Shown here: positions 1,596 to 21,768 of the stretch, piece after piece
Layout: the number at the start of each line of letters is the position of its first letter
Position numbering within the stretch: the first letter of the stretch is position 1
Origin: a virus
Reading direction: 5' to 3' (one strand)
IMG/VR virus record: IMGVR_UViG_3300034073_002693
Span: 1 to 37,686 of that record
DNA: 37,686 bases
Program-made: the position numbers and the translations under genes
Notes under the pieces: model-generated
What the model was told of the DNA's origin: nothing
The model's database searches: none
Seen by the model: only the letters and a program-made list of their open reading frames with translations

Positions 1596-4500
1596 TTATT
1601 TTTCAATGAAATAATCTTTTCTTAATTTGTTAATAGCTGTTTTACCAGGAACAACACCAAAATAATAGTAAGGTATGTTTGATCTACTATTCACGTTATT
1701 CCTTTGGCCTCTACTAATATATCTATCCCAACTGTCAGAGTCGGCATCTTCGGGACTAAGATTTGCGTTTAATTGGTTATTGTTGTTAAACCATCTGCCA
1801 ACTAAAGGATTTGTTGAGTTGTAACCTACGCATTCTGTACCACCACCAGTTTTACCACAAGGACTAAATCTATTGGCACTTGCCGCATCTACTATAAAAC
1901 CTCCATAAACAACAGGGTCGTTGGTAAAATCACCGTAAGGGTTATTAATACCTTGATACCCTGGACCACCGAATTCGTCTTCATTTGGTGGTACTTCTGA
2001 TAATTGTTGGTCCGTGTAGATTTTTGAAACTTCTTTCATAAAGAAAAAAGGATTGTCCTTTAATTCATATTCGTGACAAGGATACCCATCAAATAAACCA
2101 CTACCCCAAAATAACTGTTGTAAACTACATCTTGGGTTTGTGAAATTTTTTGCGCAATATAATATAACGTCTCTTGGATCTTCGTAGGAGGTTTCTTTTA
2201 AACTATTTACCCATATACTCGGATCCCAACCATTTTCAAAGAAAGTACCAGTGTAAAAAGTAGGTGATTGTGTATACTGTCTCAATCCTTGATTTGCTAA
2301 ACTCGCTGTCTCAATCTCTTCAATAGTTTCTTGACATAACTCAACTCTACCTAATGAAACTATTTTTGTTGAAAAAAGAGCATTACAATATATTATATCA
2401 TCTAAATCTGCCGCACCTGTTTTACCGTTCTGTATTGCGTAGTTGTGATTAACGTCATGGTAATCTCTAAATTGTCCGATACCAGTTTTTGTCTCACCAG
2501 GTCCTCTTAATAAACATCTATCACAAGTATTACCACCATCAGTATCTATACAACATTGATTAGTCACGTAATTATCTCCCCTACGTTGGTCTGCCCCAGG
2601 TCCACAAAATTTTTCTTTTTTAAGTTGTCCGGTGGATTTTTTAATTCTTCTTTTGTATTTAAATTGAAATAGATAAGCAGAACCAAATACCCAAGCGTCG
2701 TTAAAAACCCTTCTAATAACATTTCTATTTTCAGCAGCATTTAATTTAGTACAACACTTCCAATCTTCTATCAGGTTAATACAAGTATTTTGTATATTAT
2801 TAAAGTTAATAGTAATAGCTTGTAAACCAAATTTGAAAAAGTTTTGATTTACTATATTAAAATCAGAATTACTACAATTAACACCACAATAAAAACTACC
2901 GTTAGAACAACTTTGTGGGTTACAATAAAACCAATTACCGTTAGGTGGTACTTCATATTCATCATTTTGTGGTGCACCTTCACAAGGTAACTTAAATGAA
3001 CCTATAGCATTACCCAACCAACCAAATGGACACACTTGAAACCCTATATCTACCAAAGTAATATCAAAACCTATTGTAACTTTAACAATTGACCGCCACC
3101 ATGAAAACCTAACCCTTACACACAACCTAATACAAAAAGTTATTATTAATATTAATAATTTAATAAAAAAAGTTACAACATCTATAAAAAAAGATATTAT
3201 GTAGTATATAACATCAAACTTCCATATAGCATTATTAAATGGGAATAAATTTGTTTCACCACTAACATCTGTATTTTTAAGACCAATAAAACTAAATCTA
3301 TTAGCACCTTTTTTATATTTTTTAATAAAATGTGCTATAGTATATATTTGTTTCCATTCAAAAGTATGGAAATCTAAATCTATTCTAGCGTTAGGGTACA
3401 CGTTATTGTCATATGCAGCAATTTCATCTGTAAACCTTTGGTCTTGTGTACCATTTGCTTGTACGGGTGAACCAGTGTCAACCACACCCTGTGTACCACC
3501 GAAATCAACACCCAAACTAGGAAACAAAAGTGTTGCTGTCCTAAATTTAGGGTTTTCATTAGGTTCAGTAAATTTCATAGCAAAACGATACATACCTCTT
3601 GTAGGTAAACCTATTGAAGGATCGGGTGAAGGTACTATATCACCAAATTCATCAGTTATGACGTGTGCTAAATTTAAAGGTAAGGCTATAACAAAATTAC
3701 CGTCATCATCAATTAATTCACCCCCATCAATATCAAACTTTTCTAAATCCGTAGGTTTGATGTTATTGTTGTTGTACCATTCTACTTGGGAGTACTCTTT
3801 GACCCTAATCATCCTTATAGTCCCAGCACTGGTTTTTAAATTATCTTGTTCGCCTTGATCGTTTTTAGGGTTACAACCTTTATTTATGGCCATTTTACCT
3901 GTGTCAGTAAAAATAGAACCAAAAAATAAAGAAGAGGTTTTAATTTGAAAATTGGTGTCAAAATCTGCTCTTGTTATACCAATTTCACAACTTTCAGGGT
4001 CACCCCAAAATGGTATGACATCAACACTTATATTACCAGATTTAATTTGTGGTAGGGTATCTAAATTTGTTGATGTTTTAAATTGTGTTTTTGATTTGAA
4101 TAATTTTTCTGGATAACCATCCGCTATCATGTCATAAGGTCTGATACTAGCGGAACCGGCATCACTTAAGTCAACATCCATATGAACAGTATACTGACCT
4201 ACTGGTACACCAAATAACATAAAATCACCCGCAGCGTTAGTTTTTGTGGTATATTTATAATATTTATCAAAAATTTCTAAAATTAAATCACTATCTAGAA
4301 CTTCTTCTTTAGAAGGAAAAGTACCAACCGGTGTGTTTAGTAAACAAGTGGATTTGGACATTAATAAGTTATATCTAACACCGTCAGAATTTTTCTGATA
4401 TGGTGTTTTAAAAGGGTATAAATCTTTTATCAAAAGATTTTTTTCATCCTCACTTGTAATAGGTATAAAAATAGAAACTTTTGAATTAGGTACACCAAAA

Positions 4501-4682
4501 CCACCGTTTGCTATAACTCTACCTACTACTACACCGTAATTGGAACAAAAAGTTTGGTATAAATCTTCTTGACTAATTTTAAGACTTAGAATCTCTAAAA
4601 AATCAAAATCTTGTTCTAACTTAAACCTTACATTTTTTGGTGTTCCAGGTGTGGTTCTTATCCTAATTGACTCATTTGCCAT
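1596..4682 (-). CDS. Large tail/baseplate protein with carboxypeptidase-regulatory-like domain and hydrophobic segment
   Basis: A 1,028-residue structural protein. Residues about 46-170 look like a carboxypeptidase-regulatory-like (transthyretin-fold) domain: VVVGRVIANGGFGVPNSKV opens it, and TTKTNAAGDFMLFGVPVGQYTV follows the usual 'T-D-x-G-x-F-x-F-x-x-V-P-x-G-x-Y-x-V' pattern. Residues about 489-525 are strongly hydrophobic (IISFFIDVVTFFIKLLILII) and followed by Arg-rich sequence, as in a membrane helix, which is unusual in a tail protein. Residues 560-760 hold many paired cysteines (CSNGSFYCGVNC, CCIDTDGGNTCDRC), suggesting disulfides or metal sites. The start ATG overlaps the preceding gene's stop (TAATG), indicating translational coupling. 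Its place among tail genes supports a virion role. The exact role is not recognised. Confidence 0.7.
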   Translation of the reverse strand: MANESIRIRTTPGTPKNVRFKLEQDFDFLEILSLKISQEDLYQTFCSNYGVVVGRVIANGGFGVPNSKVSIFIPITSEDEKNLLIKDLYPFKTPYQKNSDGVRYNLLMSKSTCLLNTPVGTFPSKEEVLDSDLILEIFDKYYKYTTKTNAAGDFMLFGVPVGQYTVHMDVDLSDAGSASIRPYDMIADGYPEKLFKSKTQFKTSTNLDTLPQIKSGNISVDVIPFWGDPESCEIGITRADFDTNFQIKTSSLFFGSIFTDTGKMAINKGCNPKNDQGEQDNLKTSAGTIRMIRVKEYSQVEWYNNNNIKPTDLEKFDIDGGELIDDDGNFVIALPLNLAHVITDEFGDIVPSPDPSIGLPTRGMYRFAMKFTEPNENPKFRTATLLFPSLGVDFGGTQGVVDTGSPVQANGTQDQRFTDEIAAYDNNVYPNARIDLDFHTFEWKQIYTIAHFIKKYKKGANRFSFIGLKNTDVSGETNLFPFNNAIWKFDVIYYIISFFIDVVTFFIKLLILIITFCIRLCVRVRFSWWRSIVKVTIGFDITLVDIGFQVCPFGWLGNAIGSFKLPCEGAPQNDEYEVPPNGNWFYCNPQSCSNGSFYCGVNCSNSDFNIVNQNFFKFGLQAITINFNNIQNTCINLIEDWKCCTKLNAAENRNVIRRVFNDAWVFGSAYLFQFKYKRRIKKSTGQLKKEKFCGPGADQRRGDNYVTNQCCIDTDGGNTCDRCLLRGPGETKTGIGQFRDYHDVNHNYAIQNGKTGAADLDDIIYCNALFSTKIVSLGRVELCQETIEEIETASLANQGLRQYTQSPTFYTGTFFENGWDPSIWVNSLKETSYEDPRDVILYCAKNFTNPRCSLQQLFWGSGLFDGYPCHEYELKDNPFFFMKEVSKIYTDQQLSEVPPNEDEFGGPGYQGINNPYGDFTNDPVVYGGFIVDAASANRFSPCGKTGGGTECVGYNSTNPLVGRWFNNNNQLNANLSPEDADSDSWDRYISRGQRNNVNSRSNIPYYYFGVVPGKTAINKLRKDYFIEK

Positions 4683-7715: not shown

Positions 7716-10028
7716 TTAGGTAATTCCTGAATAACAAATTTGTGTGTTTGCCGAAAGTAAGTAACCTTGTGGACAAACTAAAGTCGTACCACTAATAGGA
7801 CAATCGGCACACATGTCAAATGTTAACCAAAGTTCTTTAGAGTTTAAAACTAAATTACTGTGTTTTTCATAAACACTAGATTGATTCCAATAGTCCGTAT
7901 ATCTCCAAGGGATGTCAGCGTCTAAGCTAGGCGCAAAAGTCCTATTTATAGTACCCTCACCATTTAAAGTACCAAAACTACCATCAGCCCTTTCTATCTC
8001 ATCAAAATCAGAAATACCTACGTTAGGTAACCCTGGGTTATAAACCCAAGATTTTTTATTGTCTATTACACGATTTAAATTAAACCCTGGACATTCTATG
8101 TTATTATAAACTAAAGATGGTACTTGACTAACACAATTAACTTGAATGTCGTCGATAAAAAAATCGTAATCACAGCAACAATTTAACCCTTGGTATATTT
8201 CAAGATTTAAACCAAAATTCAATGTCAAACCAGAAGTTGGTACCGTAGCTTTAAGTTGTACCCATGTATTAAAGTAGTCTGCCACAGAATCATATTCTTT
8301 TATTTGTGTTAGAGATTGGTTCAAAGAAGTATTTGTTGTACTAATCCTAGCCTTTATAGGGTTATTAATATTATAACAACAAGTTTTAGGTGTTAACTCA
8401 ATAGGTGTGGCAGTTTCCGCCTTAACTGCCGCTTTTTTTAATGTACTAGCGATTTCAATATTAGCCTGATTTATGGTTGGTTGTAAAACACCCGTATTAG
8501 GTGTTAAAGTGATATCACAAAATTGCCCTTCAATAACTATGGTGTCATCTACAGGTGGATCAGGTACTGGTTGACAAGGGTTTTGTGGTTTAGCAAAATA
8601 CAACCAAATAGAAATTTCCAAATCACTACCACAAGGTGGAACCTCCATTAAATCATTATTCAAACTAAAAGTTGCTGGTAAACAATCATCTTTTGGTGAT
8701 GCCAAACAATAAGGTGATTGCCAACTCCAGCCCAAATTAGGGTTATCTTTAATTATTCTGTTACAACAAGATTCACCTAATGATGTATTACTATCTTTTA
8801 ACGTTACTATTTGTATTGTATTGTTAAAAAAATCAAAAGTATTTACAACTTGTACTTGTGATAAATCTATTTCACATTGATCCACAACTGGTTTACACAT
8901 GCAATTACCACCACTAATAGTATCAGCAACAGTTCTTTGTGTGGATAAATTTTGGTCGGTTAAGTTAACCTCAACTCCGACAAGAATAGGGTTACTAACT
9001 GTTACAGTATCCCAATAACCACCATATTCATCACAAACACCTTTTGTCATTAAAATCGGTGTGTTTGTTATAGTACCAAAATTAACATGAAAACCACCTG
9101 TTACATTTAACGCATTAGATAAAATTAATCTTGCCTCAGTTAAGTCTTGTATTCCGTTATTATTACTGTCCGATGTACTATTAATATTTAATTTAATAAA
9201 ATTAATTTGTGTGGTAGTTAAACCTAAAGAGGGTCCTATAGATGAAAAATTGTTTATAAAAAAACTATACCCAGTTGGTGTTGAAATTAGATTCAAAAAA
9301 TCGTTTAAATTTTCAATACATTTGGGTTCATAGGTTTCTTCTATTGTTCCTTCACAAAAACATATACCATTTTTAAAAAATGTTTTACAACACTCTTGTG
9401 TTATTAGCTCACCATTTAATGTATTTACTGAAATTGTCTGTCCACTATTTGTGATTAAATCAACTACTTGTTGCCAAAGTATGGGTGAGGTTGTTGATAA
9501 ACTTTGTCCATTATGATTTGTTATGTAGGTATCATTCCACCAATCAAAATTAGTACAATCTATACAGGTGACTGATTCGGGACATGCGGGTATTAATTTA
9601 CAGGTTTTTCCGTCCCAATAATATTCTGACCCAATAGGTGGGGGACCCAATTGTTGATTTGTTTTTGAACAGCACTCTGGACCTTCTACACCCAAAACCT
9701 CACCATCCATAGTTATACTGTAAGGTCCAACACAACCACCAATATCACCTTTAATACCGGCTATAGGTATTTCAGATGAAATTTTAGCAAAATTTAATTC
9801 GTTACTTATGGTAGTTTTTTCTATCGTATAAACACAACAATCAGGGCAAGAATTTGTAGCTAACGAATTATAGTTGGTTGCTAAAGGATCTGTACAACCA
9901 TCTATTTTTATCCCATAAACACAACAATCAGGACAAGGGTTTGTTGCTGTTGGATCATAATTTGTTGCCAAAGGATCCATACAACCTATTTTATTAAAAA
10001 TCTCTCCTTGTAATATTATTTCTGTCAT
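7716..10028 (-). CDS. Cysteine-rich modular tail protein with GCxDPxATNY repeats
   Basis: 770 residues and very rich in cysteine. Residues 15-38 and 44-67 are tandem copies of GC(M/T)DPLATNY...ATN.CPDCCVY, which matches the 'GCTDPxAxNYxxxAxxxxxxCxY' repeat common in secreted Bacteroidota proteins. CC modules with a downstream Trp and Cys recur at 119-120, 213-214 and 421-422, and resemble those in the next gene upstream. Residues 287-298 (DSNNNGIQDLTE) look like a calcium-binding DxNxNGxxD loop. Residues about 590-745 form a lectin- or jelly-roll-like beta region that includes a CCC at 617-619. The start is the ATG after an A-rich leader. It is probably an extracellular tail fibre or adhesin-like appendage. 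Ligand unknown. Confidence 0.7.
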   Translation of the reverse strand: MTEIILQGEIFNKIGCMDPLATNYDPTATNPCPDCCVYGIKIDGCTDPLATNYNSLATNSCPDCCVYTIEKTTISNELNFAKISSEIPIAGIKGDIGGCVGPYSITMDGEVLGVEGPECCSKTNQQLGPPPIGSEYYWDGKTCKLIPACPESVTCIDCTNFDWWNDTYITNHNGQSLSTTSPILWQQVVDLITNSGQTISVNTLNGELITQECCKTFFKNGICFCEGTIEETYEPKCIENLNDFLNLISTPTGYSFFINNFSSIGPSLGLTTTQINFIKLNINSTSDSNNNGIQDLTEARLILSNALNVTGGFHVNFGTITNTPILMTKGVCDEYGGYWDTVTVSNPILVGVEVNLTDQNLSTQRTVADTISGGNCMCKPVVDQCEIDLSQVQVVNTFDFFNNTIQIVTLKDSNTSLGESCCNRIIKDNPNLGWSWQSPYCLASPKDDCLPATFSLNNDLMEVPPCGSDLEISIWLYFAKPQNPCQPVPDPPVDDTIVIEGQFCDITLTPNTGVLQPTINQANIEIASTLKKAAVKAETATPIELTPKTCCYNINNPIKARISTTNTSLNQSLTQIKEYDSVADYFNTWVQLKATVPTSGLTLNFGLNLEIYQGLNCCCDYDFFIDDIQVNCVSQVPSLVYNNIECPGFNLNRVIDNKKSWVYNPGLPNVGISDFDEIERADGSFGTLNGEGTINRTFAPSLDADIPWRYTDYWNQSSVYEKHSNLVLNSKELWLTFDMCADCPISGTTLVCPQGYLLSANTQICYSGIT
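9828..9986 (-). repeat. Two tandem GCxDPLATNY cysteine repeats (within the 770-aa gene)
   Basis: Two units of about 29 codons encode residues 15-38 and 44-67 of the tail protein. Each opens with GCxDPLATNY and ends with CPDCCVY. The DNA copies are similar but not identical (caatcagggcaag versus caatcaggacaag), so the duplication is not very recent. Confidence 0.8.
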
Positions 10029-10069
10029 TAACTATAAGTATTTTTTAATTGATTTTTTATCATTTTAAT

Positions 10070-13000
10070 TTAACAATTAGAACCTAATGGTGAACACTCA
10101 GTAGTAGGTGTAGGATAAGGATGTAAGTTATCAAATATATAGTAAGACGATGCTAAACTATAAGATGGTACCGGATTATTACTAGTGAAATCTAATTTAT
10201 AAAGAGTGTTATTATATTCAAAATAAATAAAGTTTTCGTAGATTCCAGGACTTGAAAAATTATTACTTATTTGTATTAAATTTGTAGGGGTAAGTAACGT
10301 ATTTAAACTAGCATCTAAATATAGTGGTGAGTTTAATGGTGTTTGACCTGGTTGTACATATAAAGTGGTTACTACGCCTGCTAACAAATTAGAAGTACCA
10401 TAAACTGTATTATAGATACCTACAAGACACTGTTGGTTATTTATACATTTGGTGGTGTTACCTAATTTTAATTGAGCTGGTACACTTTGTGGGGTACCGA
10501 TATTGTTGTTATATATTAAACATTTATTGGTCTCTGAATCCCATACAGCCTCACCAAATTGATTGTGATATAGTGTACAGCATTGTTGTGACAATGAATT
10601 ACCTTCATAAGTTACCTCAATAGGTGAGGTAGTTCCAATTAATTGGTATCCATTATTAATAGTGGATTCTCCGGTTACACTGTCATATATCATAACACCA
10701 GGACAAGAATAACACTTATCACCTTCACCAAAAGCATTACCAAACCAACCACCTATTTGTTCACAACATTGTTGTGATAAATCTAAACCATTAACATTTA
10801 CTATTTGATACTCATTAAGTTCTGTACCGTAATTAACTACTGTTGGGCATTTTGTACATTTTTGTAAATTTAAATCCCAATTAAACCCATAATCTACACA
10901 ACATTCTTGTAATAAATCATTGTTATTTGAGTCCTTAATAATAATACTTGAATTTTCAACAACCTCAATAAGATTATTAGGACATGAAGAACAATAAGAG
11001 TTCGAACCCGCAAAAGTTGAACCTGGTAAATCTAAGAATGTTGTTGTACCGTTTTGTGAAACCAATGTTATATTATTATTGTTTGAATCTACAGGTGATA
11101 CCCAATATTGGCCGTTTTGGTTACAACAGGATTCTGGTAATAAAGTGTTGTCTGGTTTTACCCAAACATGTGTTTTAGGATATACTTGTGACCCCGCACA
11201 AGGGTTAGGATTTGGTTTTAAACAATAGTTAACCCCATTTATGTTAGTTAACGTACCACCCCTCAATTCACAACAACCTTTATCTTTAATCACATTGTCT
11301 TGGTTATCTAAAATTAAACACCCGTAATTGTTAAAAAATGGTTCGTAAATGTTTGAAATAAAGTATGTAGCTTCAGAACCTATATTAGGTGAAGCGCCTA
11401 AACTAACAGCTAATTGTATTATTTGTGTTTGTGTCAAAGTAGATAAGTAATCGTCAACACTACATATTGTTTGTAAATAGTTTTCTGGTGGGCACCAATA
11501 ACAAGTATAATTAGATTGTATCACAATACCACCTGTATATGAGTTAAATAAATCGTTTGTTGAGTATGTTCTTAGTGTTGATACATTTTCTGTACCAATC
11601 TCAATAGGTGTCCCTGTGTTGGTGCTTGTCACATATAAACAATTTCTACCATCCCATGTAACATTAAAACCTAAATACGCTTTTGTACAACACTGTTGTG
11701 AAACAGTTTCATTTGTGTTAGAATCTAACACAACGTTATCAAATGATATTGACACTGATTCAGGGTTGGGGCAAGTTTGTGGTATAACACAATTTCTACC
11801 ATCCCATGTAACATTAAAACCTAAATACGCTTTTGTACAACACTGTTGTGACACTGTTTGATTTGTATTGGTATCTAACACCAATCCGTCAACAGATATC
11901 ATTAATTCGTTAGGTTTTGGGCATACTGGTGTGTTTGTATATGTCGGTAACCAATAGTTTTTACAACATAAAGAATTTGTTAAAGGTGGGTTATTTAAAG
12001 GATCTCTAACCCCTGTATTAACATACACAATGCCGTCTGACCCAAAAATTAATTGTTCTGTACAAGTATTACAAACATTTTTATTACCCGCAGTGAAACT
12101 AATTTTCATTGAAAAGGTGTCTCCACTAGGTCTAGCATAGTTTGGTGCATTATTACCCCCAACATAAGTTAACCCCGCAGAATTAACCACAACATTATTT
12201 ACAGAACCGTTATTTAAAGCGGTTGCATAACCAGTACCGTAGTAAGGTACTGGTAAACCATTTTGGTCAAAAATGAAAGTACCTTCATTGTAGTTGTTAA
12301 AATAATTTTTAGTAACAGTAACGAGTGTTGAAGCTGTTAGTAACTGATTGAAGTTAGGTGTGAAGCATTCAAATTGTGAAAAATAACTTTTACCGAAATC
12401 ATAAGGTCCTATATGTGGGTTATTACCAATAGTGGATTCATTCCCACCGTTATACCAAAAACCACCCATCTGAAAATAGTTACTTGTGGTTTCTGGTAAT
12501 ACTTTTGGGAAACCAAAATTATCAATTGGGTAGTCACTTAAGTTTAAAGAACCCATACCTGTTTTATCAAATATTTCTTGTATTTGTGTATAAACTTTTT
12601 GTATATCCAATCTGTTTTCCGCTAAATAAACATATTCATTTAGTGATATAACACATTGTGGTATTTTAAATAAATTAAAGAAAAATTCTATAACTTTCCT
12701 AGTACCTTTAGATTTGAACAACCACCACGCATTTATAACCAATCTTCTCCACAATTCTATATCTAATTCTTTTGCCGATAATGACCTTGAGTATCCACTA
12801 AAAGGTGTATTAAGTGAAGGTTTTATTTGTTCTGTTAAGTTAAAATTATCTGAACCAACAGTTAATAAAACATCAAAACCTAAATTTTTGGCCATCATTT
12901 TTATTAACTCATCGGAAGTATTATCAAGTTTGTTGTAAGTAACAACATTAGCGAACGATATGCCATCAATATATTTTTTAACCTCATCAAATTCTCTACC

Positions 13001-14101
13001 GTAAATTCTTAAAAGTTTTGAAACTTTCATACCGTAAGCTTCTTCACCTTCCCCTCCTACAGTACCCCCATTCGTATCGAACTCGTGAATAGATTCTGAA
13101 ACAAACCTTCTAGAAACTAAATCTGTTTTATTACTATCAAAATTAATGGCCGCATTTAATAATTGTTTAACATAAAATGCATAATCTGTAGTGTTAATAT
13201 CTATATTGTACCCATCACTAACTGGCCATGTAAAATTTTCTGTAGTTACATATCTTACACCATCACTTTCTTTTGGTACATCAAAAGATGAGGTGTATAT
13301 AGGCGTTGTTAATCTATTTAAAAGTACCTTTTCAAAATCTAATAGGTTTTCAAAAAATAACTGTACCTCTAAACTATTAGGTTTTAAATGGTAAGTTATT
13401 TGGCCAAAAGTGGATGCACTAAGGGTTGGGAACGGGTTACCTATTGTTTTAACAAAAATATATGGGTATGTGTCAGTAGAACCAGTATAACCAATTAAAG
13501 GGTACTCTGTATCACCACCTGTCCATATAACGTATTTATCGTAATTTAATTGTAAATTATAAATTTCGGTATCTAAGAAGTTATTACTATCAATAATCAA
13601 CTCAAAATTATTAGATACGACACTTTTTGGTATTAAGAATGTAGATGTATTGTCTCCGCCGTTATAATTAAAAGATAAAACTGTATTTACAGCGGTATTT
13701 GTATTTAAAAATGGGTCTAAAAATAAAGAACCTTTCCATTTTTGAATAATCTGTTCTATGGTTACTCTAACAAATTCTTGAAAGCTGCCGAAATAAACAT
13801 ACCTACTAATATTATAGGGGTCAAAATTTAACCTAATAAGTATTTCATTGGATAATAAAATTTCTGAAGTACTTTGTGAAAGGTTTAAATTATCTAAACT
13901 ATAATAGTCAGACCACTGCCCACCTAAGACAAAATTTTTATTTAATTTTCTATCTAAATTTGTCGTTATTTGAAAGTTACCAAAAGTAAAAAGTGAGACC
14001 CCGTCGGTAAATTGAAGTCCGACTAAGTTAGGTGAAAAATCACCCTCTCTTCTTTTGTAAGCTTCCGTTAGGGAACGAGGTGTTACTTTAACTGTTGCCA
14101 T
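10070..14101 (-). CDS. Baseplate protein: gpI-like N-terminal half fused to eight CC-type cysteine modules
   Basis: 1,343 residues. Residues about 360-490 look like a phage tail protein I (P2 gpI-like) segment: LLRIYGREFDEVKKYIDG, then MAKNLGFDVLL, then RLVINAWWLFKSKGTRKVIE and FFNLFKIP. This family joins the baseplate to tail fibres. From about 700 to 1200 the protein becomes a chain of cysteine modules, each with a double cysteine (CC at 712, 754, 804, 943, 992, 1067, 1112 and 1174), usually a downstream Trp and often a C-x2-CP ending. Two adjacent modules (751-771 and 801-821) are identical over 21 residues. The first half is ordinary tail sequence, so the C-terminal half looks like an acquired disulfide-rich stalk or adhesive region. 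The start is two bases after the preceding stop. Confidence 0.75.
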   Translation of the reverse strand: MATVKVTPRSLTEAYKRREGDFSPNLVGLQFTDGVSLFTFGNFQITTNLDRKLNKNFVLGGQWSDYYSLDNLNLSQSTSEILLSNEILIRLNFDPYNISRYVYFGSFQEFVRVTIEQIIQKWKGSLFLDPFLNTNTAVNTVLSFNYNGGDNTSTFLIPKSVVSNNFELIIDSNNFLDTEIYNLQLNYDKYVIWTGGDTEYPLIGYTGSTDTYPYIFVKTIGNPFPTLSASTFGQITYHLKPNSLEVQLFFENLLDFEKVLLNRLTTPIYTSSFDVPKESDGVRYVTTENFTWPVSDGYNIDINTTDYAFYVKQLLNAAINFDSNKTDLVSRRFVSESIHEFDTNGGTVGGEGEEAYGMKVSKLLRIYGREFDEVKKYIDGISFANVVTYNKLDNTSDELIKMMAKNLGFDVLLTVGSDNFNLTEQIKPSLNTPFSGYSRSLSAKELDIELWRRLVINAWWLFKSKGTRKVIEFFFNLFKIPQCVISLNEYVYLAENRLDIQKVYTQIQEIFDKTGMGSLNLSDYPIDNFGFPKVLPETTSNYFQMGGFWYNGGNESTIGNNPHIGPYDFGKSYFSQFECFTPNFNQLLTASTLVTVTKNYFNNYNEGTFIFDQNGLPVPYYGTGYATALNNGSVNNVVVNSAGLTYVGGNNAPNYARPSGDTFSMKISFTAGNKNVCNTCTEQLIFGSDGIVYVNTGVRDPLNNPPLTNSLCCKNYWLPTYTNTPVCPKPNELMISVDGLVLDTNTNQTVSQQCCTKAYLGFNVTWDGRNCVIPQTCPNPESVSISFDNVVLDSNTNETVSQQCCTKAYLGFNVTWDGRNCLYVTSTNTGTPIEIGTENVSTLRTYSTNDLFNSYTGGIVIQSNYTCYWCPPENYLQTICSVDDYLSTLTQTQIIQLAVSLGASPNIGSEATYFISNIYEPFFNNYGCLILDNQDNVIKDKGCCELRGGTLTNINGVNYCLKPNPNPCAGSQVYPKTHVWVKPDNTLLPESCCNQNGQYWVSPVDSNNNNITLVSQNGTTTFLDLPGSTFAGSNSYCSSCPNNLIEVVENSSIIIKDSNNNDLLQECCVDYGFNWDLNLQKCTKCPTVVNYGTELNEYQIVNVNGLDLSQQCCEQIGGWFGNAFGEGDKCYSCPGVMIYDSVTGESTINNGYQLIGTTSPIEVTYEGNSLSQQCCTLYHNQFGEAVWDSETNKCLIYNNNIGTPQSVPAQLKLGNTTKCINNQQCLVGIYNTVYGTSNLLAGVVTTLYVQPGQTPLNSPLYLDASLNTLLTPTNLIQISNNFSSPGIYENFIYFEYNNTLYKLDFTSNNPVPSYSLASSYYIFDNLHPYPTPTTECSPLGSNC
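11640..11851. repeat. 62-bp perfect direct repeat, 150-bp period
   Basis: Bases 11640-11701 and 11790-11851 are identical, and flanking sequence remains similar. The 150-bp period equals 50 codons, so the frame is kept and one cysteine module of the 1,343-aa protein is duplicated. The near identity points to a recent duplication. Confidence 0.92.
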
Positions 14102-15001: not shown

Positions 15002-15445
15002 TTATGTTATTTGTTTTATGTTATAATATCCGTTTCTATAATTAGTTAATGTACCTAAATTTTTAATTTCTGAAAGTCTAGAATACCTTTCAAAAACAGC
15101 CAAATTCATTCTTTCTATAAATAGCTCGTTACTTACTTTTGGTGGGAAAACTAACCCCATTTTAGCCTCTTCTTTTATATCAAAAGTGTTTTGTCTATTA
15201 GGAAACGTAATGTAGGGTTCAAAATCATATCCGGAATAGTATGTAAAAAATTTTGTAACTAAAGTGGGGAATTCAGTTATATAATTTATGTCACCTATAG
15301 TATAAGATACCGAAGTTATTGCTGTTAAATTTGCTGGGTTATAATTTATATTTGTAACACCATTAACACCTATTTGATAGGGGTTGGTGTTACTGTATGT
15401 AGTAATTAAATCTAATTTTTGTGATGTAAATCCTGATATTATCAT
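15002..15445 (-). CDS. Small baseplate-block protein of unknown function
   Basis: 147 residues with no cysteine. A beta-rich N-terminal half is followed by a helical region (DIKEEAKMGLVFPPKVSNELFIERMNLAVFERYSRLSEI) and a Tyr-rich tail. The ATG overlaps the stop of the SprB-like gene (ATGA), so translation is probably coupled. The helical 'E-R-x-N-L-A-V-F-E-x-x-x-R-L-x-E-I' stretch would suit a subunit contact in a baseplate. I do not recognise the family. Confidence 0.62.
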   Translation of the reverse strand: MIISGFTSQKLDLITTYSNTNPYQIGVNGVTNINYNPANLTAITSVSYTIGDINYITEFPTLVTKFFTYYSGYDFEPYITFPNRQNTFDIKEEAKMGLVFPPKVSNELFIERMNLAVFERYSRLSEIKNLGTLTNYRNGYYNIKQIT

Positions 15446-17322
15446 ATTGTTAATGTAATACTAATAGGTCCAAATGTACAATTATTACTATCTGTTACCG
15501 TTACAGATATTGTTTGTCCATTACATGATATGTCTGAAGTTATAGATGTGGTTGGTAATCCGGATTGTCCAGGTCCAGACCATGTTATTGTATAAGGTGA
15601 TACACCACCATTTATATCGATAACAGCCTGTCTACAACTATCAGGGTTTATTCCACAAGCACAAGATCCGTCTTCAACAGAAATAACACCGTAACTAACA
15701 AATAACGGTAGAGGTGGTTGTGTCAAAGTAAATGTTGTTGTACCAGAACAATTTGGTATCGTGGAGTCTACTACTGTTAAAGTGTGTGTACCTGCTGATA
15801 TATTATTTATATTAACGTTTGTTGTAGGTCCTAAAGCCGTTGTTTTAAGTACACCGTCTATGTAATATTTAAAGGTGTTAGAACCAGTAGGTATTGTAGT
15901 AGGGTTTGTTGTATAAGATGTATTGACAGTTATGTTTTTAGTTCCATTAAAACATGTTATATTGTAACCATTTGTTGTGCTTATAGGATTTATATTAACA
16001 TTTAATAAAGGTTTTTGTTTTAAAACTACTGTTTGTGTAGGTCCGTTACAACCGTTACTATCTTGTATTGTAAATTGATATGTGGCAGCATCTAGATTAA
16101 ATAAATTATAAGGATTACTTATACTTAATTGATCTATTATAAGGTTATCCCTTATGACTGATACAATATATGGTGACTGACCACCAGAAGGTGATATTGT
16201 TATATTACCACTATCTGATCCGAAACAACCTATGTTATATGTGTTGGATCCAATAGGTATATTAGTTGAGCTAACTGTTAGATTCACGTTACTTAGTGAA
16301 GTGATGTTAATAGAGCTTATTGTGGATGTATTAGCAAAGCTATCTGATATTTGTACACTATAACAAGGTATGTTAGAAGGACAAGCCAATAAATTATTAA
16401 ATGTCGCGTTTCCAGTGGTTGTAATGGTATTGTTTACAGGCCCTGTTAGGACGTATGTATAACCATTAATACCACCTACAGCAGAAATTGTCATAGAACC
16501 GTCGTTACCACCAAAACAAGTAACATTTGTTGTGGTAAGAACCGTACCTGTTATAGGTGTTGGTTCTGTTATATTAAAAAATTGTGAAACGGTAGTATTA
16601 CTTGCATCAGTGATTTGGGCACTATACTGCCCAGCACATAAAGACGTTAAGCCGGTAATTGTTGTAGAAGGTCCGGCTAAAACTGTTGCGACCGTACCTA
16701 CAATAGAATACCATGTGTATGTGTAAGGTGGTTGACCGCCTAGGGTGGTTACACTTGCCGTACCATTACATCCACCAGGTGAAGTAACATTTGTTTGTGA
16801 ATCATTAGTTTCTAACAAAATTGATAATGATTGTGGTTGTGTTAAAAAATAGTTAGCATAAGTTGTGTTACAATTCGCATCAACAACTTTAATAGTATAA
16901 TTACCATAAGCTAAATTATTTATAGTTAAGTTACTGCTAGTAAAATTATTAGGTCCGGACCAACTTATTGTTTGTGGTCCAGGACAACCAACAATTGTTG
17001 CTGATATAGAACCATTATTTGCACCGTAAAATGTAATTGGTGTTGAGTTAAAACTTACTGTACAATTGTTTAAGGTTAAACAAGGTGTTTGTCCCGCACC
17101 TGTATTAGATAGATTCCACACACCAGAAAAATCCACTATTTCATAAACAGGATTTTCCACATCCGTGTATACACCAATATCTTCTAAATTTTGATTTAAA
17201 AAAACTGGAAAATATAAAGTGGTTGCTGTTATTAGGTATGATGAGGCTGTAATAGGTAAATTATTATTTATAACCCTATAATTTAAATCTTCATAACCAA
17301 CTTTTCTTTTATATATTTCCAT
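15442..17322 (-). CDS. Tail protein with six SprB-like adhesin repeats
   Basis: 626 residues. Residues 1-85 form a short phage-specific anchor. The rest is six tandem Ig-like modules of about 80-100 residues (about 86-164, 165-256, 257-344, 345-438, 439-538 and 539-626). Diagnostic parts include TCFGGNDGSMTISAVGG, GCFGSDSGNITISPSGG with SPYIVSV, and GGVSPYTITWSG, most modules ending in G-x-Y/H-x-x-x-V-x-D-x-x-x-C. This is the pattern of the SprB repeat of Flavobacterium gliding adhesins ('C-F-G-G-x-D-G-x-A...GG-x-x-P-Y-x-Y-x-W'). It is probably a tail fibre or decoration that contacts the host surface. Its start overlaps the preceding stop as TAATG and its stop overlaps the next start as ATGA. 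The assignment is by motif reading, not by a profile search. Confidence 0.75.
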   Translation of the reverse strand: MEIYKRKVGYEDLNYRVINNNLPITASSYLITATTLYFPVFLNQNLEDIGVYTDVENPVYEIVDFSGVWNLSNTGAGQTPCLTLNNCTVSFNSTPITFYGANNGSISATIVGCPGPQTISWSGPNNFTSSNLTINNLAYGNYTIKVVDANCNTTYANYFLTQPQSLSILLETNDSQTNVTSPGGCNGTASVTTLGGQPPYTYTWYSIVGTVATVLAGPSTTITGLTSLCAGQYSAQITDASNTTVSQFFNITEPTPITGTVLTTTNVTCFGGNDGSMTISAVGGINGYTYVLTGPVNNTITTTGNATFNNLLACPSNIPCYSVQISDSFANTSTISSINITSLSNVNLTVSSTNIPIGSNTYNIGCFGSDSGNITISPSGGQSPYIVSVIRDNLIIDQLSISNPYNLFNLDAATYQFTIQDSNGCNGPTQTVVLKQKPLLNVNINPISTTNGYNITCFNGTKNITVNTSYTTNPTTIPTGSNTFKYYIDGVLKTTALGPTTNVNINNISAGTHTLTVVDSTIPNCSGTTTFTLTQPPLPLFVSYGVISVEDGSCACGINPDSCRQAVIDINGGVSPYTITWSGPGQSGLPTTSITSDISCNGQTISVTVTDSNNCTFGPISITLTI

Positions 17323-18116: not shown

Positions 18117-19951
18117 TCTTGTGGTATTGTGGTAGGTTCTATGTATTTATCACCCAATAGAGTTATCGGTGGTTTTTGTCTTCTAACATATAAATTATGG
18201 TTAAAATAAAAATAATGTGCACCGTTTAAAAAAGGGTAGTCTACACCGTTAACACCCTCTTCAAAATAACCTATAGTTAATAAATCACGCCAAGCTATAG
18301 AACCATCGGCGTAAGTAACATAATTTTCTGGTATGTCAATAATAATCTCATCGGGGTTAGCGTACTCTATTACATTTGAGTACTTTCTTATTTCTAACCG
18401 ATTAAACGGTTTATAGTAATACCCTTCATTATTAGGTGTTGGGGTGATTCCAAATCTATGGATAACATCTGAACATTTTCTTTCTAAAAGGTCTTTAGAA
18501 TTAAACTCCATAAAATCACCAATATATTTACTACCTGGTACTGCCACTATATCACCGTTACTATTAATAAAATTTGTTCTACCAGACAATTTTTCAACAC
18601 TACCAATTCCGTTTGGGTTATAAATAGATATAAACTCGATTCCGTTAGATGTGTCCGTAGTTCCATAATTAAAATCCCAATCAGCAGTCACAGTAGACCA
18701 ACCATATGGGTTTTTACCAGCTCTTTTAATAACAGTATAATAAAGTTCCGATATTGGTCCATTTCTATCACTACTTAACCCATCAATATTAACATCTTCA
18801 TTAAATTGAAATAACCAAGTGTCGTTAACAGAACCTATTGTTACATCAGAAACGTTTGGGTATATATTGCTACTAAATGAACATGGATAAACACTATAAT
18901 CGTTAGTGGTTATAACTTCAAATTGTCTAACGTAATATTCAGATGGCGTACCGTTAAAAAATCTATACTGTGGGTTAGGAGCGGGTATTACATTAGTCCC
19001 TTTAGGTACGTTTAAATTAACTCTAATTATAAACTCTGTAGAACCTGTAACACTACCTATAATGTTGTAAACTCTCCAAACACCGTTTAAAATATTTGCT
19101 GAACCCACTTTTATCTCTACAAAATCGTTAAGTAATAGATTGTGTGGTTGTGTAGTTTTTATTTTGGTGTACCTTATATCGTTCACCGTGTAATTACCTA
19201 ATGTGTTACCACTTATGTCTGTGGCCGTTGCAAAAACTATGGTGCCAGAGTTATAAAAATTAGTGTCAGCCTCTGAAGGTTCTACCACTCTAAAAAAATT
19301 ACCAAACCCAATAGGTAATGTCAAAGGATCGACTATAACATCTAAAGTTAAATTTTTTTGTAAATTTTCACCTTCAATACCTAAATTTTTAACCCTATAT
19401 ACACCTTGTAATTGATTAGTAGAAAGACTACTAGATATATAAATGTAATCCCCTTCTGATAAGTTATGGTTTTGTACACCTAAAACTGTTAAATAATTAT
19501 CAGTATTTATTACAGTGGTACCTAAAGCTTGGTATTGTAATCCACGGTAAGCTTCTGTAGAAATAGTGCCTAGAGATGTTCTAGCATTTATTGTATAATT
19601 AAAAATTTGATTTGATGGGTAAGTTATTTGCATAACCCAATTATTTGGAGCTAAAGGTGGGTTACCATAAAAGATGGGGCTCCAAGAAGAGTCGTCATAT
19701 TTACCGTTAACATAAGAAGTAGAACCTGTTGATAGTACATTTGATGTGTAGATATTGAACTTTCCGTTTATTCGATATTTTTTAGAATTGTTTCTTTCGT
19801 CTAAAAAAACTTGATACTGATTTACAATGTCTATGATATTGTATTCAGTTAAAGGTTTAGACTTTTGTTCTAAATCTAGTTGAATATTGGTGTCTTTATT
19901 TTGTGCAAGTTTATATCTAGCACTACCTATTAAATTTGAATATTTTGACAT
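18110..19951 (-). CDS. Baseplate wedge-associated protein with two internal 'HNL-GD' modules
   Basis: 613 residues, directly downstream of the gp6-like gene and coupled to it by TAATG. Two modules of about 55 residues (about 153-208 and 260-313) align as 'x-H-N-L-x-x-x-D-(Y/F)-(I/V)-x-I...L-(Q/N)-G-V-(Y/W)-R-V-x-N-(L/I)', a beta-type repeat seen in many phage tail and fibre proteins. The N-terminal 50 residues are helical (YKLAQNKDTNIQLDLEQKSK). A C-terminal beta region (430-613) ends in a single Cys. In T4 the gp7/gp8 wedge proteins follow gp6, so a wedge role is plausible, but no clear similarity to them is visible. Confidence 0.65.
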   Translation of the reverse strand: MSKYSNLIGSARYKLAQNKDTNIQLDLEQKSKPLTEYNIIDIVNQYQVFLDERNNSKKYRINGKFNIYTSNVLSTGSTSYVNGKYDDSSWSPIFYGNPPLAPNNWVMQITYPSNQIFNYTINARTSLGTISTEAYRGLQYQALGTTVINTDNYLTVLGVQNHNLSEGDYIYISSSLSTNQLQGVYRVKNLGIEGENLQKNLTLDVIVDPLTLPIGFGNFFRVVEPSEADTNFYNSGTIVFATATDISGNTLGNYTVNDIRYTKIKTTQPHNLLLNDFVEIKVGSANILNGVWRVYNIIGSVTGSTEFIIRVNLNVPKGTNVIPAPNPQYRFFNGTPSEYYVRQFEVITTNDYSVYPCSFSSNIYPNVSDVTIGSVNDTWLFQFNEDVNIDGLSSDRNGPISELYYTVIKRAGKNPYGWSTVTADWDFNYGTTDTSNGIEFISIYNPNGIGSVEKLSGRTNFINSNGDIVAVPGSKYIGDFMEFNSKDLLERKCSDVIHRFGITPTPNNEGYYYKPFNRLEIRKYSNVIEYANPDEIIIDIPENYVTYADGSIAWRDLLTIGYFEEGVNGVDYPFLNGAHYFYFNHNLYVRRQKPPITLLGDKYIEPTTIPQEC

Positions 19952-21768
19952 TAAAACTTAGTTCTTACTTTTATATCACTATTAGGTAATTTTATTTCAA
20001 ACATCGTATCATATTCAGCAAATAAAACGTAATCTGATGTTAAATCTATTTCCCCAGTTTCTTCATCTATAAATTCCTGTGAGGTGATATTAGGCGAGTA
20101 ATTACCACCGTATAGATTATAAATTTTAATATCTACCACATTAAGTACCCCGGCTACATTATTTATCGACTCCACTAATTGTGATATGTAAATATTTTGT
20201 CCCATTTGCCACTTTTTAATATCAAAATAATCTTTAATAACATTAATAGTATTGTTTATTATTTCACCCTGATTAAATGATTTATCTGTGTATAAGTCAA
20301 TATCAAAACTTAAATTTATAATTTTACCGTCTCTAATTAAAACATAATCATTTATCATCCTATATTCCGCCAACCAAGTGGCCATGTTTTCCTTTAGTGT
20401 ATTGGTTGAGCTGTTTGTTAATTTTCCGTTAGAATCTAAACCTAAAATAGCAAATTCTACTTTGTTTTCTTTTTCAGAAACTTGCATTCTAAAAGGTACA
20501 CCAAATTTACCTGGCATTTTAAATATTGTAGCGATATAATCCTTTATTGTGACAGCTCTATTTTGTGAAGAAAAATTGTATTTAGTCATGTACCTTATTT
20601 CTTCTATTGTAGGATCATTAGCTCCACCAAAAGCTGGAATAGGGTTATTTACTCGTAAAGAACTTCTGACAAACTGATTGTTTGCCGCCACGGGTCCATT
20701 AACAACCATTTCAAAAAACCCAACAGTGTTTATCGTGTTTAAACCTATATTAGCACCCGCACCACCACCTACTCTGTATTTAACGAATAAGGTACTGTTA
20801 GGTTTGGGTATTTCGCCTAAAGCTATACTATTAAAATAGTTTGATATTTGTAATATATAAGAATCTTTAGTGTAGTTTTGTAAATAATAATCATCAGAAT
20901 AACCTGACCCAAAAGTTAATTTACAAAAACCAGTGTCAGTATATTCTTTTAAAAATTTTCTGGTAACAGAAATCCATTTACCAGGTGTTATGCCAGAATT
21001 ATCCGTACTTCTTGTAGGATCATCAACAAAAATTTTGTCTTCGGCTAAAGAATCAACTTCATACCATTTTAAATTATCATCCGAAAACTCTGAAGTTGTT
21101 GGATTATTATTAAAAGTTGTACCGTCTTTTGTAATGACAGATTCTATCGATACTACATTATTGTCCGGTAATAAAACCTCTAAGAATGGTATTGAATCGG
21201 CTGTACCTAAAACTTTTTTAAAATATTTTGTCACACCATTACTAACTAACTCTCTTTTAACTAAAGTATAATTAGTAATTTGATTGTTAGAATTAATGTT
21301 TGGTATAATTAACCTATTTGGTATTCCGCCTAAAGAAAAAGGTGATGAAAAATCTATATCTTCTAAAGTCTCAAAAGTTTGTCCACCCCCCATAACTTGA
21401 GCACCGTATCTAATTACAGGTGCGTACCTAACATCAAAAGTATCACCAAAAACTGGTACTGTAACAGCAAAATCAACTAAAGTAACGGATGACCTTTTAC
21501 CGGGTATTTTTAAACCTAAAGTTCTCGCTATATTCATAACAGACCTTCTTTCTTGAGCGTAGTCTATTTGAGTTTCATTAAACATCCTATCTGTGTGGTA
21601 AGACAACATGTCTGATACAGCCGCATTAAGTTCAATTAACATCGTACCAATAGACGCATCATTAAAGTCTTGGTATAGTTCTGGGTAAAAATGTTTGACG
21701 TAATTAATTAATTCAGTTCTTACGTCTAAAAAATTTCTTGCGAAGTAATTTATTTTTTTTTCTGCCAT
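19951..21768 (-). CDS. 6: Baseplate wedge protein, gp6-like (Baseplate J family)
   Basis: 605 residues. The N-terminus (INYFARNFLDVRTELINYVK, then HFYPELYQDFNDASIGTMLIEL and AVSDMLSYHTDRMFNE) is the signature of T4 gp6 and its Baseplate_J relatives. The RTLGLKIPGKRSS segment follows as in that family. The centre (about 190-400) is the beta-rich J domain, and the C-terminal part (about 430-560) is alpha/beta with NNTINVIKDYFDIKKWQMGQ and ISQLVESINNVAGV. Gp6 forms the inner wedge ring around the tail hub. It follows the gp25-like gene by four bases, the usual 25-6 (P2 W-J) order. T4 gp6 is about 660 residues, so the length fits. Confidence 0.9.
   Translation of the reverse strand: MAEKKINYFARNFLDVRTELINYVKHFYPELYQDFNDASIGTMLIELNAAVSDMLSYHTDRMFNETQIDYAQERRSVMNIARTLGLKIPGKRSSVTLVDFAVTVPVFGDTFDVRYAPVIRYGAQVMGGGQTFETLEDIDFSSPFSLGGIPNRLIIPNINSNNQITNYTLVKRELVSNGVTKYFKKVLGTADSIPFLEVLLPDNNVVSIESVITKDGTTFNNNPTTSEFSDDNLKWYEVDSLAEDKIFVDDPTRSTDNSGITPGKWISVTRKFLKEYTDTGFCKLTFGSGYSDDYYLQNYTKDSYILQISNYFNSIALGEIPKPNSTLFVKYRVGGGAGANIGLNTINTVGFFEMVVNGPVAANNQFVRSSLRVNNPIPAFGGANDPTIEEIRYMTKYNFSSQNRAVTIKDYIATIFKMPGKFGVPFRMQVSEKENKVEFAILGLDSNGKLTNSSTNTLKENMATWLAEYRMINDYVLIRDGKIINLSFDIDLYTDKSFNQGEIINNTINVIKDYFDIKKWQMGQNIYISQLVESINNVAGVLNVVDIKIYNLYGGNYSPNITSQEFIDEETGEIDLTSDYVLFAEYDTMFEIKLPNSDIKVRTKF

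Follow-up and report, generated by a model that had tools for sequence, protein, structure and literature searches.

In the Agrobacterium phage Milano, intra- and inter-chain disulfides are found in sheath, baseplate and receptor-binding proteins (PMC10811340), and huge myoviruses that infect Bacteroidota, with the bS21 huge phages of freshwater Bacteroidetes, have also been described (PMC9723584). Here we analysed an AT-rich IMG/VR virus record of 37.7 kilobases (kb), IMGVR_UViG_3300034073_002693, whose positions 1 to 37,686 are together referred to as the window. Two adjacent tail genes on its minus strand, encoding a 1,343-amino-acid (aa) protein (10070-14101) and then a 770-aa protein (7716-10028), both confirmed as open reading frames (ORFs), share a repeated module built around four cysteines (Cys). 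As in Milano, Cys-rich structural proteins of a contractile tail are concerned and wedge and receptor-binding proteins are involved, but Milano has scattered Cys in ordinary tail folds and inter-subunit bonds, whereas here a discrete, repeated four-Cys domain has been added. Generic Cys-rich domains such as EGF, VWC, fibronectin type I and prolamin-like domains are likewise small and Cys-stabilised, but none shows a significant sequence or fold match to the module. The existence of the domain, its spread and its predicted fold are strongly supported. As to its chemistry and job, we on balance favour the hypothesis that it is an accessory, disulfide-stabilised spacer domain, carried in tandem off a wedge-like protein in huge Bacteroidota myophages and singly in a siphophage tail protein.

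The 1,343-aa protein consists of a Cys-poor N-terminal part (aa 1-659) with 2 Cys and a Cys-rich C-terminal part (aa 660-1343) with 39. All eight modules, which we call m1 to m8, lie within its C-terminal half, and every one of its 8 CC pairs is beyond residue 700. It contains 6 strict C-CC-C units compared to a mean of 0.13 in shuffled sequences (maximum 2 in 2,000 shuffles), and its 8 CC pairs compare to a shuffle mean of 1.2. When ORFs from all loci were reversed, a broad module profile found nothing under E 0.69, and the profile of a second module family, described below, gave no match at E < 1e-3 to reversed ORFs. Chance clustering of Cys in this protein was ruled out by the shuffles and reversed-ORF controls together.

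The module spans about 45 residues with the pattern C(P)-x20-30-CC-x11-22-C, and the copies align beyond the Cys through a hydrophobic I/V...V strand pair, a glycine and an aromatic W/Y position. In an alignment of 77 diverse modules taken from both carriers, the four Cys are the sole invariant columns; these 77 were chosen for having C-CC-C, so the stronger test of Cys invariance is the second carrier. An earlier note on this DNA had described a motif with a central CC and a tryptophan, ending in C-x2-CP. The CC and the core stand and the tryptophan is usual, not universal, but C-x2-CP lies outside the module, linking the last Cys of one copy to the first Cys of the next. Of 69 such links in relatives, 33 are 2 residues long and the others 5-29.

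Structure prediction supported a common fold. For a lone 46-residue module (m6) with 77 aligned copies, AlphaFold2 gave a predicted local distance difference test score (pLDDT) of 94.9 and a predicted template-modelling score of 0.70. The predicted fold is ββ-α-ββ, with strands at residues 6-11 and 14-19, a helix at 27-32 that contains the CC pair, and strands at 36-38 and 43-45. The helix bears two of the four Cys; of the others, one is at the N-terminal edge and one in the final strand. A model of the tandem region from 17 sequences had a mean pLDDT of 71, with most module stretches at about 75-91. On these models, the module is a self-contained domain predicted, with very high confidence for the lone copy, to fold on its own.

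Detection of the individual copies was assessed with a window-free profile, built solely from other phages of the window's lineage. It recovered five modules with independent E-values (i-E) from 4e-15 to 1.4e-6, all on the minus strand: m2 (11789-11923, aa 727-771; i-E 3.9e-15), m3 (11639-11773, aa 777-821; 3e-13), m6 (10856-10984, aa 1040-1082; 5.5e-11), m7 (10712-10849, aa 1085-1130; 1.2e-6) and m8 (10520-10705, aa 1133-1194; 1.4e-6). It detected m4 (11222-11320, aa 928-960) and m5 (10991-11200, aa 968-1037) weakly (i-E 0.07 and 1.7). By this profile five modules of the protein are strong and three, m4, m5 and m1 (11921-12064, aa 680-727), are divergent, and the eight copies counted by the earlier note hold in that sense. 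A broader profile of 439 sequences detected all eight (m4 at i-E 0.008, m1 at 3e-4). Because its training set appears still to contain the window, its figures for m1, m4, m5 and the 770-aa protein are less independent, and the valid independent test is that made with window-free or other-sequence profiles. In m4, which is kept in relatives, the first Cys is nearer to the CC, and m5 has an insertion of predicted β strands between the CC and the last Cys. m3 is a tandem duplicate of m2 (135 nucleotides, 81% identical, with a period of 150 nucleotides). The m2-m3 block appears to have been inserted ahead of the last Cys of m1, which may be the Cys of a CYWC motif at aa 867, as in relatives without m2-m3.

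The module is also present in a second protein. Viral contigs searched with the DNA pattern CC..WDG..C, which is blind to the remaining protein, returned mostly the window's lineage and a 1,011-aa protein with a single module, and with a second DNA pattern 105 module-bearing loci were obtained, almost all in relatives of the 1,011-aa protein. This second carrier is a siphophage tail protein of about 1,000 aa, unrelated to the 1,343-aa protein, and its gene is flanked by tail-fibre and tape-measure-type genes. A profile of the core region that precedes the module, in which the module itself was not used, found at least 500 relatives among the matches listed. The module was present in 80 of the 80 relatives that were kept, as judged by the module profile and inspected sequences, and in all 150 second-carrier ORFs longer than 900 aa. 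Each protein has one copy, always directly after the conserved core domain and followed by a linker and a variable C-terminal part. The spacing in 120 unique modules is C-x27-31-CC-x11-16-C, and the four Cys are invariant in a protein with a mean of 5 other Cys in about 1,000 aa.

Profile-profile alignment of the two module families by hhalign gave E 5e-12. The profile of one family matched 80 of 80 members of the other, and in the reverse direction the profile of the second carrier, an unrelated protein family, detected m6 of the window at i-E 1.7e-6; these reciprocal profiles had no hit at E < 1e-3 in reversed or other ORFs. Judged by these sequence comparisons, the two module families are homologous. 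Since two unrelated carriers have homologous modules, the module is an independent domain and not a feature of one gene; it is shared by two adjacent tail proteins, as the earlier note had it, but is not peculiar to them. From a cultured phage, the tail-region protein AFM54766 of Nonlabens phage P12024L is a distant relative of the N-terminal region of the second carrier, but it lacks the module, contains 2 Cys in all and has a BACON domain following instead. In at least one protein of the second family (locus L281, 2415-5585) the module is preceded by a C1q domain (PF00386, E 1.5e-7), a fold with known roles in receptor binding.

The domain matched no described family. No Pfam or PHROG family matches more than 2 of the 77 modules even at E up to 1, NCBIfam gave no match to whole carrier proteins of the phage lineage, and when whole carrier proteins were compared with the family libraries the module regions were without any hit. 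Among Protein Data Bank (PDB) sequences, the best hmmsearch match was a spurious 31-residue stretch of eIF3d (E 0.064), and among PDB folds the best Foldseek matches were at E 1.7 for the lone module and 0.47 for the tandem region, none of them significant. The best viral structural match, in BFVD, was A0A6J5NYC0, an unannotated, uncharacterized 947-aa protein of an uncultured Caudovirales phage (probability 0.85, template-modelling score 0.56, 25% identity over 44 columns), whose E of 0.3 is below significance alone; from the predicted structures it is probably another module carrier. Identity with a known domain was dismissed after the Pfam, NCBIfam, PHROGs, PDB sequence, PDB fold and BFVD searches, in agreement with the earlier note, which had not recognised the module as a named family. 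A limited literature search, with most subscription papers outside its reach, found no earlier description of the module.

The 770-aa protein has 42 Cys, 7 CC pairs, three modules and two other Cys repeats. Its C-CC-C units are not above chance by Cys counting (69 of 2,000 shuffles equal them), so its modules rest on the profile. The broader profile finds them on the minus strand at 9600-9734 (aa 99-143; i-E 2.3e-6), at 9354-9440 (aa 197-225; i-E 0.0018), a short variant that ends in CFC, and at 8706-8876 (aa 385-441; i-E 1.8e-7). By this profile, the earlier note's count of at least three modules in this protein stands, and the modules of both proteins extend over 8706-12064 instead of 8750-12004. 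At the N-terminus of the 770-aa protein, two C-x-DPLATNY repeats (9834-9983, minus strand), each ending in C-x2-CC, are a different Cys repeat and not the module. Repeats of the form C-x-DP-x-A-x-NY-x-P-x-A stand ahead of the modules in this protein and its relatives (loci L012, L063 and L070), and the protein bearing them has no match in Pfam or NCBIfam. A further sub-motif, EYGGYWD...NCMC / WDGSNCKC, occurs at 8895-9035 and in relatives (for example L015, 13297-14622). It ends in C-x-C, with one Cys replacing the CC, and is possibly a related but distinct Cys unit of the 770-aa protein family.

With the 1,343-aa protein as query, 76 loci were found in viral contigs of up to 318 kb; one locus, L002, is identical to that protein along its full length and may be the same virus as the window. 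An iterated profile found 271 module hits in this lineage, 134 of them less than 80% identical to one another. Gene order is kept among the relatives, and Cys are repeatedly enriched at the same sites, namely the C-terminal half of the 1,343-aa protein, the one or two genes that come next and often a large upstream protein. In some relatives (L014 and L018) the module array is a separate ORF, and the m2-m3 block is absent from several. Given the tandem duplication of m2/m3 and the absence of the block from relatives, copy number shifts by whole modules. The stalk suggested by the earlier note is unproven: in one family several modules extend the C-terminus, and in the other a single copy stands at a junction.

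The genes around the modules are those of a T4-like phage and include DnaB, UvsX, single-strand binding protein, endonuclease VII, ribonucleotide reductase and a gp6-like wedge protein. The gp6-like gene (19951-21768) lies upstream of the gene for the 1,343-aa protein, with several genes between. Within the N-terminal part of the 1,343-aa protein, aa ~242-501 are homologous to the large protein that follows the gp6-like gene in Mel-JY01, a Microcystis phage (WWT39511; a three-phage profile gave E 6e-11), and the part weakly matches a protein of Flavobacterium phage immuto (immuto26A_162; E 3e-4). Both proteins occupy a comparable place after the gp6-like wedge gene, but have 5 and 9 Cys, respectively, no CC and no module. 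The T4 gp7 / P2 gpI wedge family is likewise placed downstream of a gp6/gpJ-type wedge gene, and from this gene order we infer that the 1,343-aa protein is wedge-like, positionally comparable to T4 gp7 / P2 gpI.

The remaining tail genes of the window are mostly Cys-poor, with two exceptions. First, a 1,028-aa protein (1596-4682, minus strand), kept in relatives, has 27 Cys and 2 CC pairs; it is unmatched by the module profile and has no significant Pfam or PHROG hit. Second, a 626-aa tail-region protein (15442-17322, minus strand) has five matches to the SprB repeat (Pfam PF13573, E 1.7e-16). SprB repeats, familiar from the Flavobacterium gliding adhesin, are typical of Bacteroidota surface adhesins. 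They are encoded in 9 of 12 related phage records, and a baseplate-region protein of these phages thus bears host-adhesin-like repeats. Ribosomal protein S21 is encoded by three large relatives, G001 (the record of L021), G005 and G006. By SprB and S21, the window's lineage is consistent with the huge Bacteroidota myoviruses (PMC9723584). Genome contigs scanned with the N-terminal profile yielded one viral contig, of 83.8 kb, in a Prochlorococcus single-cell assembly (L078, QCKH01000004.1). It carries a relative of the N-terminal part and, since IMG/VR has a contig of equal length and coordinates (L062), it probably belongs to a virus that was sorted together with the Prochlorococcus cell or was infecting it.

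Both carriers have an even, invariant set of four Cys per autonomous unit, as expected of a disulfide domain. Disulfides between adjacent Cys are rare, so that two pairings are possible, C1-C2 with C3-C4 or C1-C3 with C2-C4. Co-loss of Cys gave no clue to the pairing, as the four are never lost in the second carrier. Most likely, we infer, there are two intra-domain disulfides, each helix Cys bonding one of the terminal Cys. In keeping with units of four, the Cys between successive CCs number exactly 2 in 69 of 118 intervals and are even in 90. The earlier note held disulfides to be unusual for proteins that fold in a reducing cytoplasm; the Milano precedent makes this objection weaker than stated (PMC10811340).

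The main rival on chemistry, also raised by the earlier note, is that the four Cys bind a metal, probably zinc, which would make the module a new zinc domain able to fold in a reducing cytoplasm. It remains a rival, less favoured, and we regard it as unlikely. A Zn(Cys)4 site would fit the four invariant Cys of each unit, and a CC pair together with two more Cys could still bind a metal; the cytoplasm is where virion proteins fold, and related phage contigs often carry thioredoxin or glutaredoxin. Two adjacent central Cys would nevertheless be unusual for a single metal site. Many tandem modules are joined by C-x2-CP, a spacing common in zinc knuckles, but this C-x2-C is merely the inter-module link of varying length and is absent from the single-copy carrier, and it was dismissed as a defining zinc knuckle. 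The fixed CxxC or CxC knuckles inside the unit that would mark a Cys4 zinc domain were not found, and profiles gave no consistent match to zinc families (1 of 77 members hits zf-FLZ, E 0.008). In favour of disulfides, the 684-aa Cys-rich region of the 1,343-aa protein contains only 3 His.

Several observations weigh against the disulfide-stabilised spacer that we favour. First, 28 of the 118 inter-CC intervals hold an odd number of Cys, as does the C-terminal part of the 1,343-aa protein (39), and co-gain of extra Cys is marginal (Fisher p = 0.03, related sequences being counted one by one). Second, no DsbA was seen in related phage contigs, where DsbA-profile hits coincide with thioredoxin genes, and no dedicated thiol oxidase was found in them, though the control of the sulfhydryl oxidase search was itself silent. 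With thioredoxin or glutaredoxin present and DsbA not seen, bonding after release from the cell seems likelier than a phage-encoded oxidation pathway. Third, the label "wedge-type" is drawn from gene order and from homology to neighbours that are themselves unannotated. In hhalign comparisons of the N-terminal part with T4 gp7, P2 gpI and Mu gp48 the probabilities were <1%, leaving direct kinship to T4 gp7 / P2 gpI unsupported.

As to function, the modules could instead be receptor- or glycan-binding units whose copy number and sequence vary under host-range selection. They sit in variable C-terminal regions near a gene with SprB repeats, and the close relatives L005, L006 and L063 visibly differ in m2 and m3, the tandem duplicates. 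We nevertheless consider this rather doubtful, as module order is conserved between orthologues, and proteins of the second carrier family always have the module once and at one place, ahead of a variable C-terminal part that would be the better receptor binder. Least probable is a Milano-like network in which the Cys crosslink neighbouring subunits: Milano joins baseplate wedge and receptor-binding proteins in this way (PMC10811340), and 39 Cys in the region imply at least one that is unpaired or inter-chain, but each unit has exactly four Cys even when single in a protein with few others, and the module is predicted to fold alone.

In the spacer model, the disulfides would staple both chain ends to the helix and give a rigid, protease-resistant bead. 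In the window's lineage, such beads would be strung as a C-terminal extension of the baseplate wedge-type protein and in the product of the next gene, where they may serve at the baseplate rim as a spacer or an arm for holding or presenting adhesins. In the siphophage carrier, a single bead would join the core domain to the variable C-terminal part. A further proposal, which we put forward tentatively and consider rather improbable, is that this new phage-specific domain is a reduced or metal-bound bead in the cell that becomes disulfide-locked after lysis in oxygenated water, a redox maturation of the tail in two unrelated lineages of aquatic Bacteroidota phages. If true, virions would be rigid or robust only outside the host. 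A compact domain whose fold is predicted with confidence is widespread in uncultured aquatic phages, yet missing from the family and structure libraries searched. The module, small enough at about 45 residues that a single copy should be readily expressed and characterised, offers a handle for annotating unknown tail proteins, and it opens a general question to test, namely whether and when disulfides form in phage tails that are assembled in a reducing cytoplasm.

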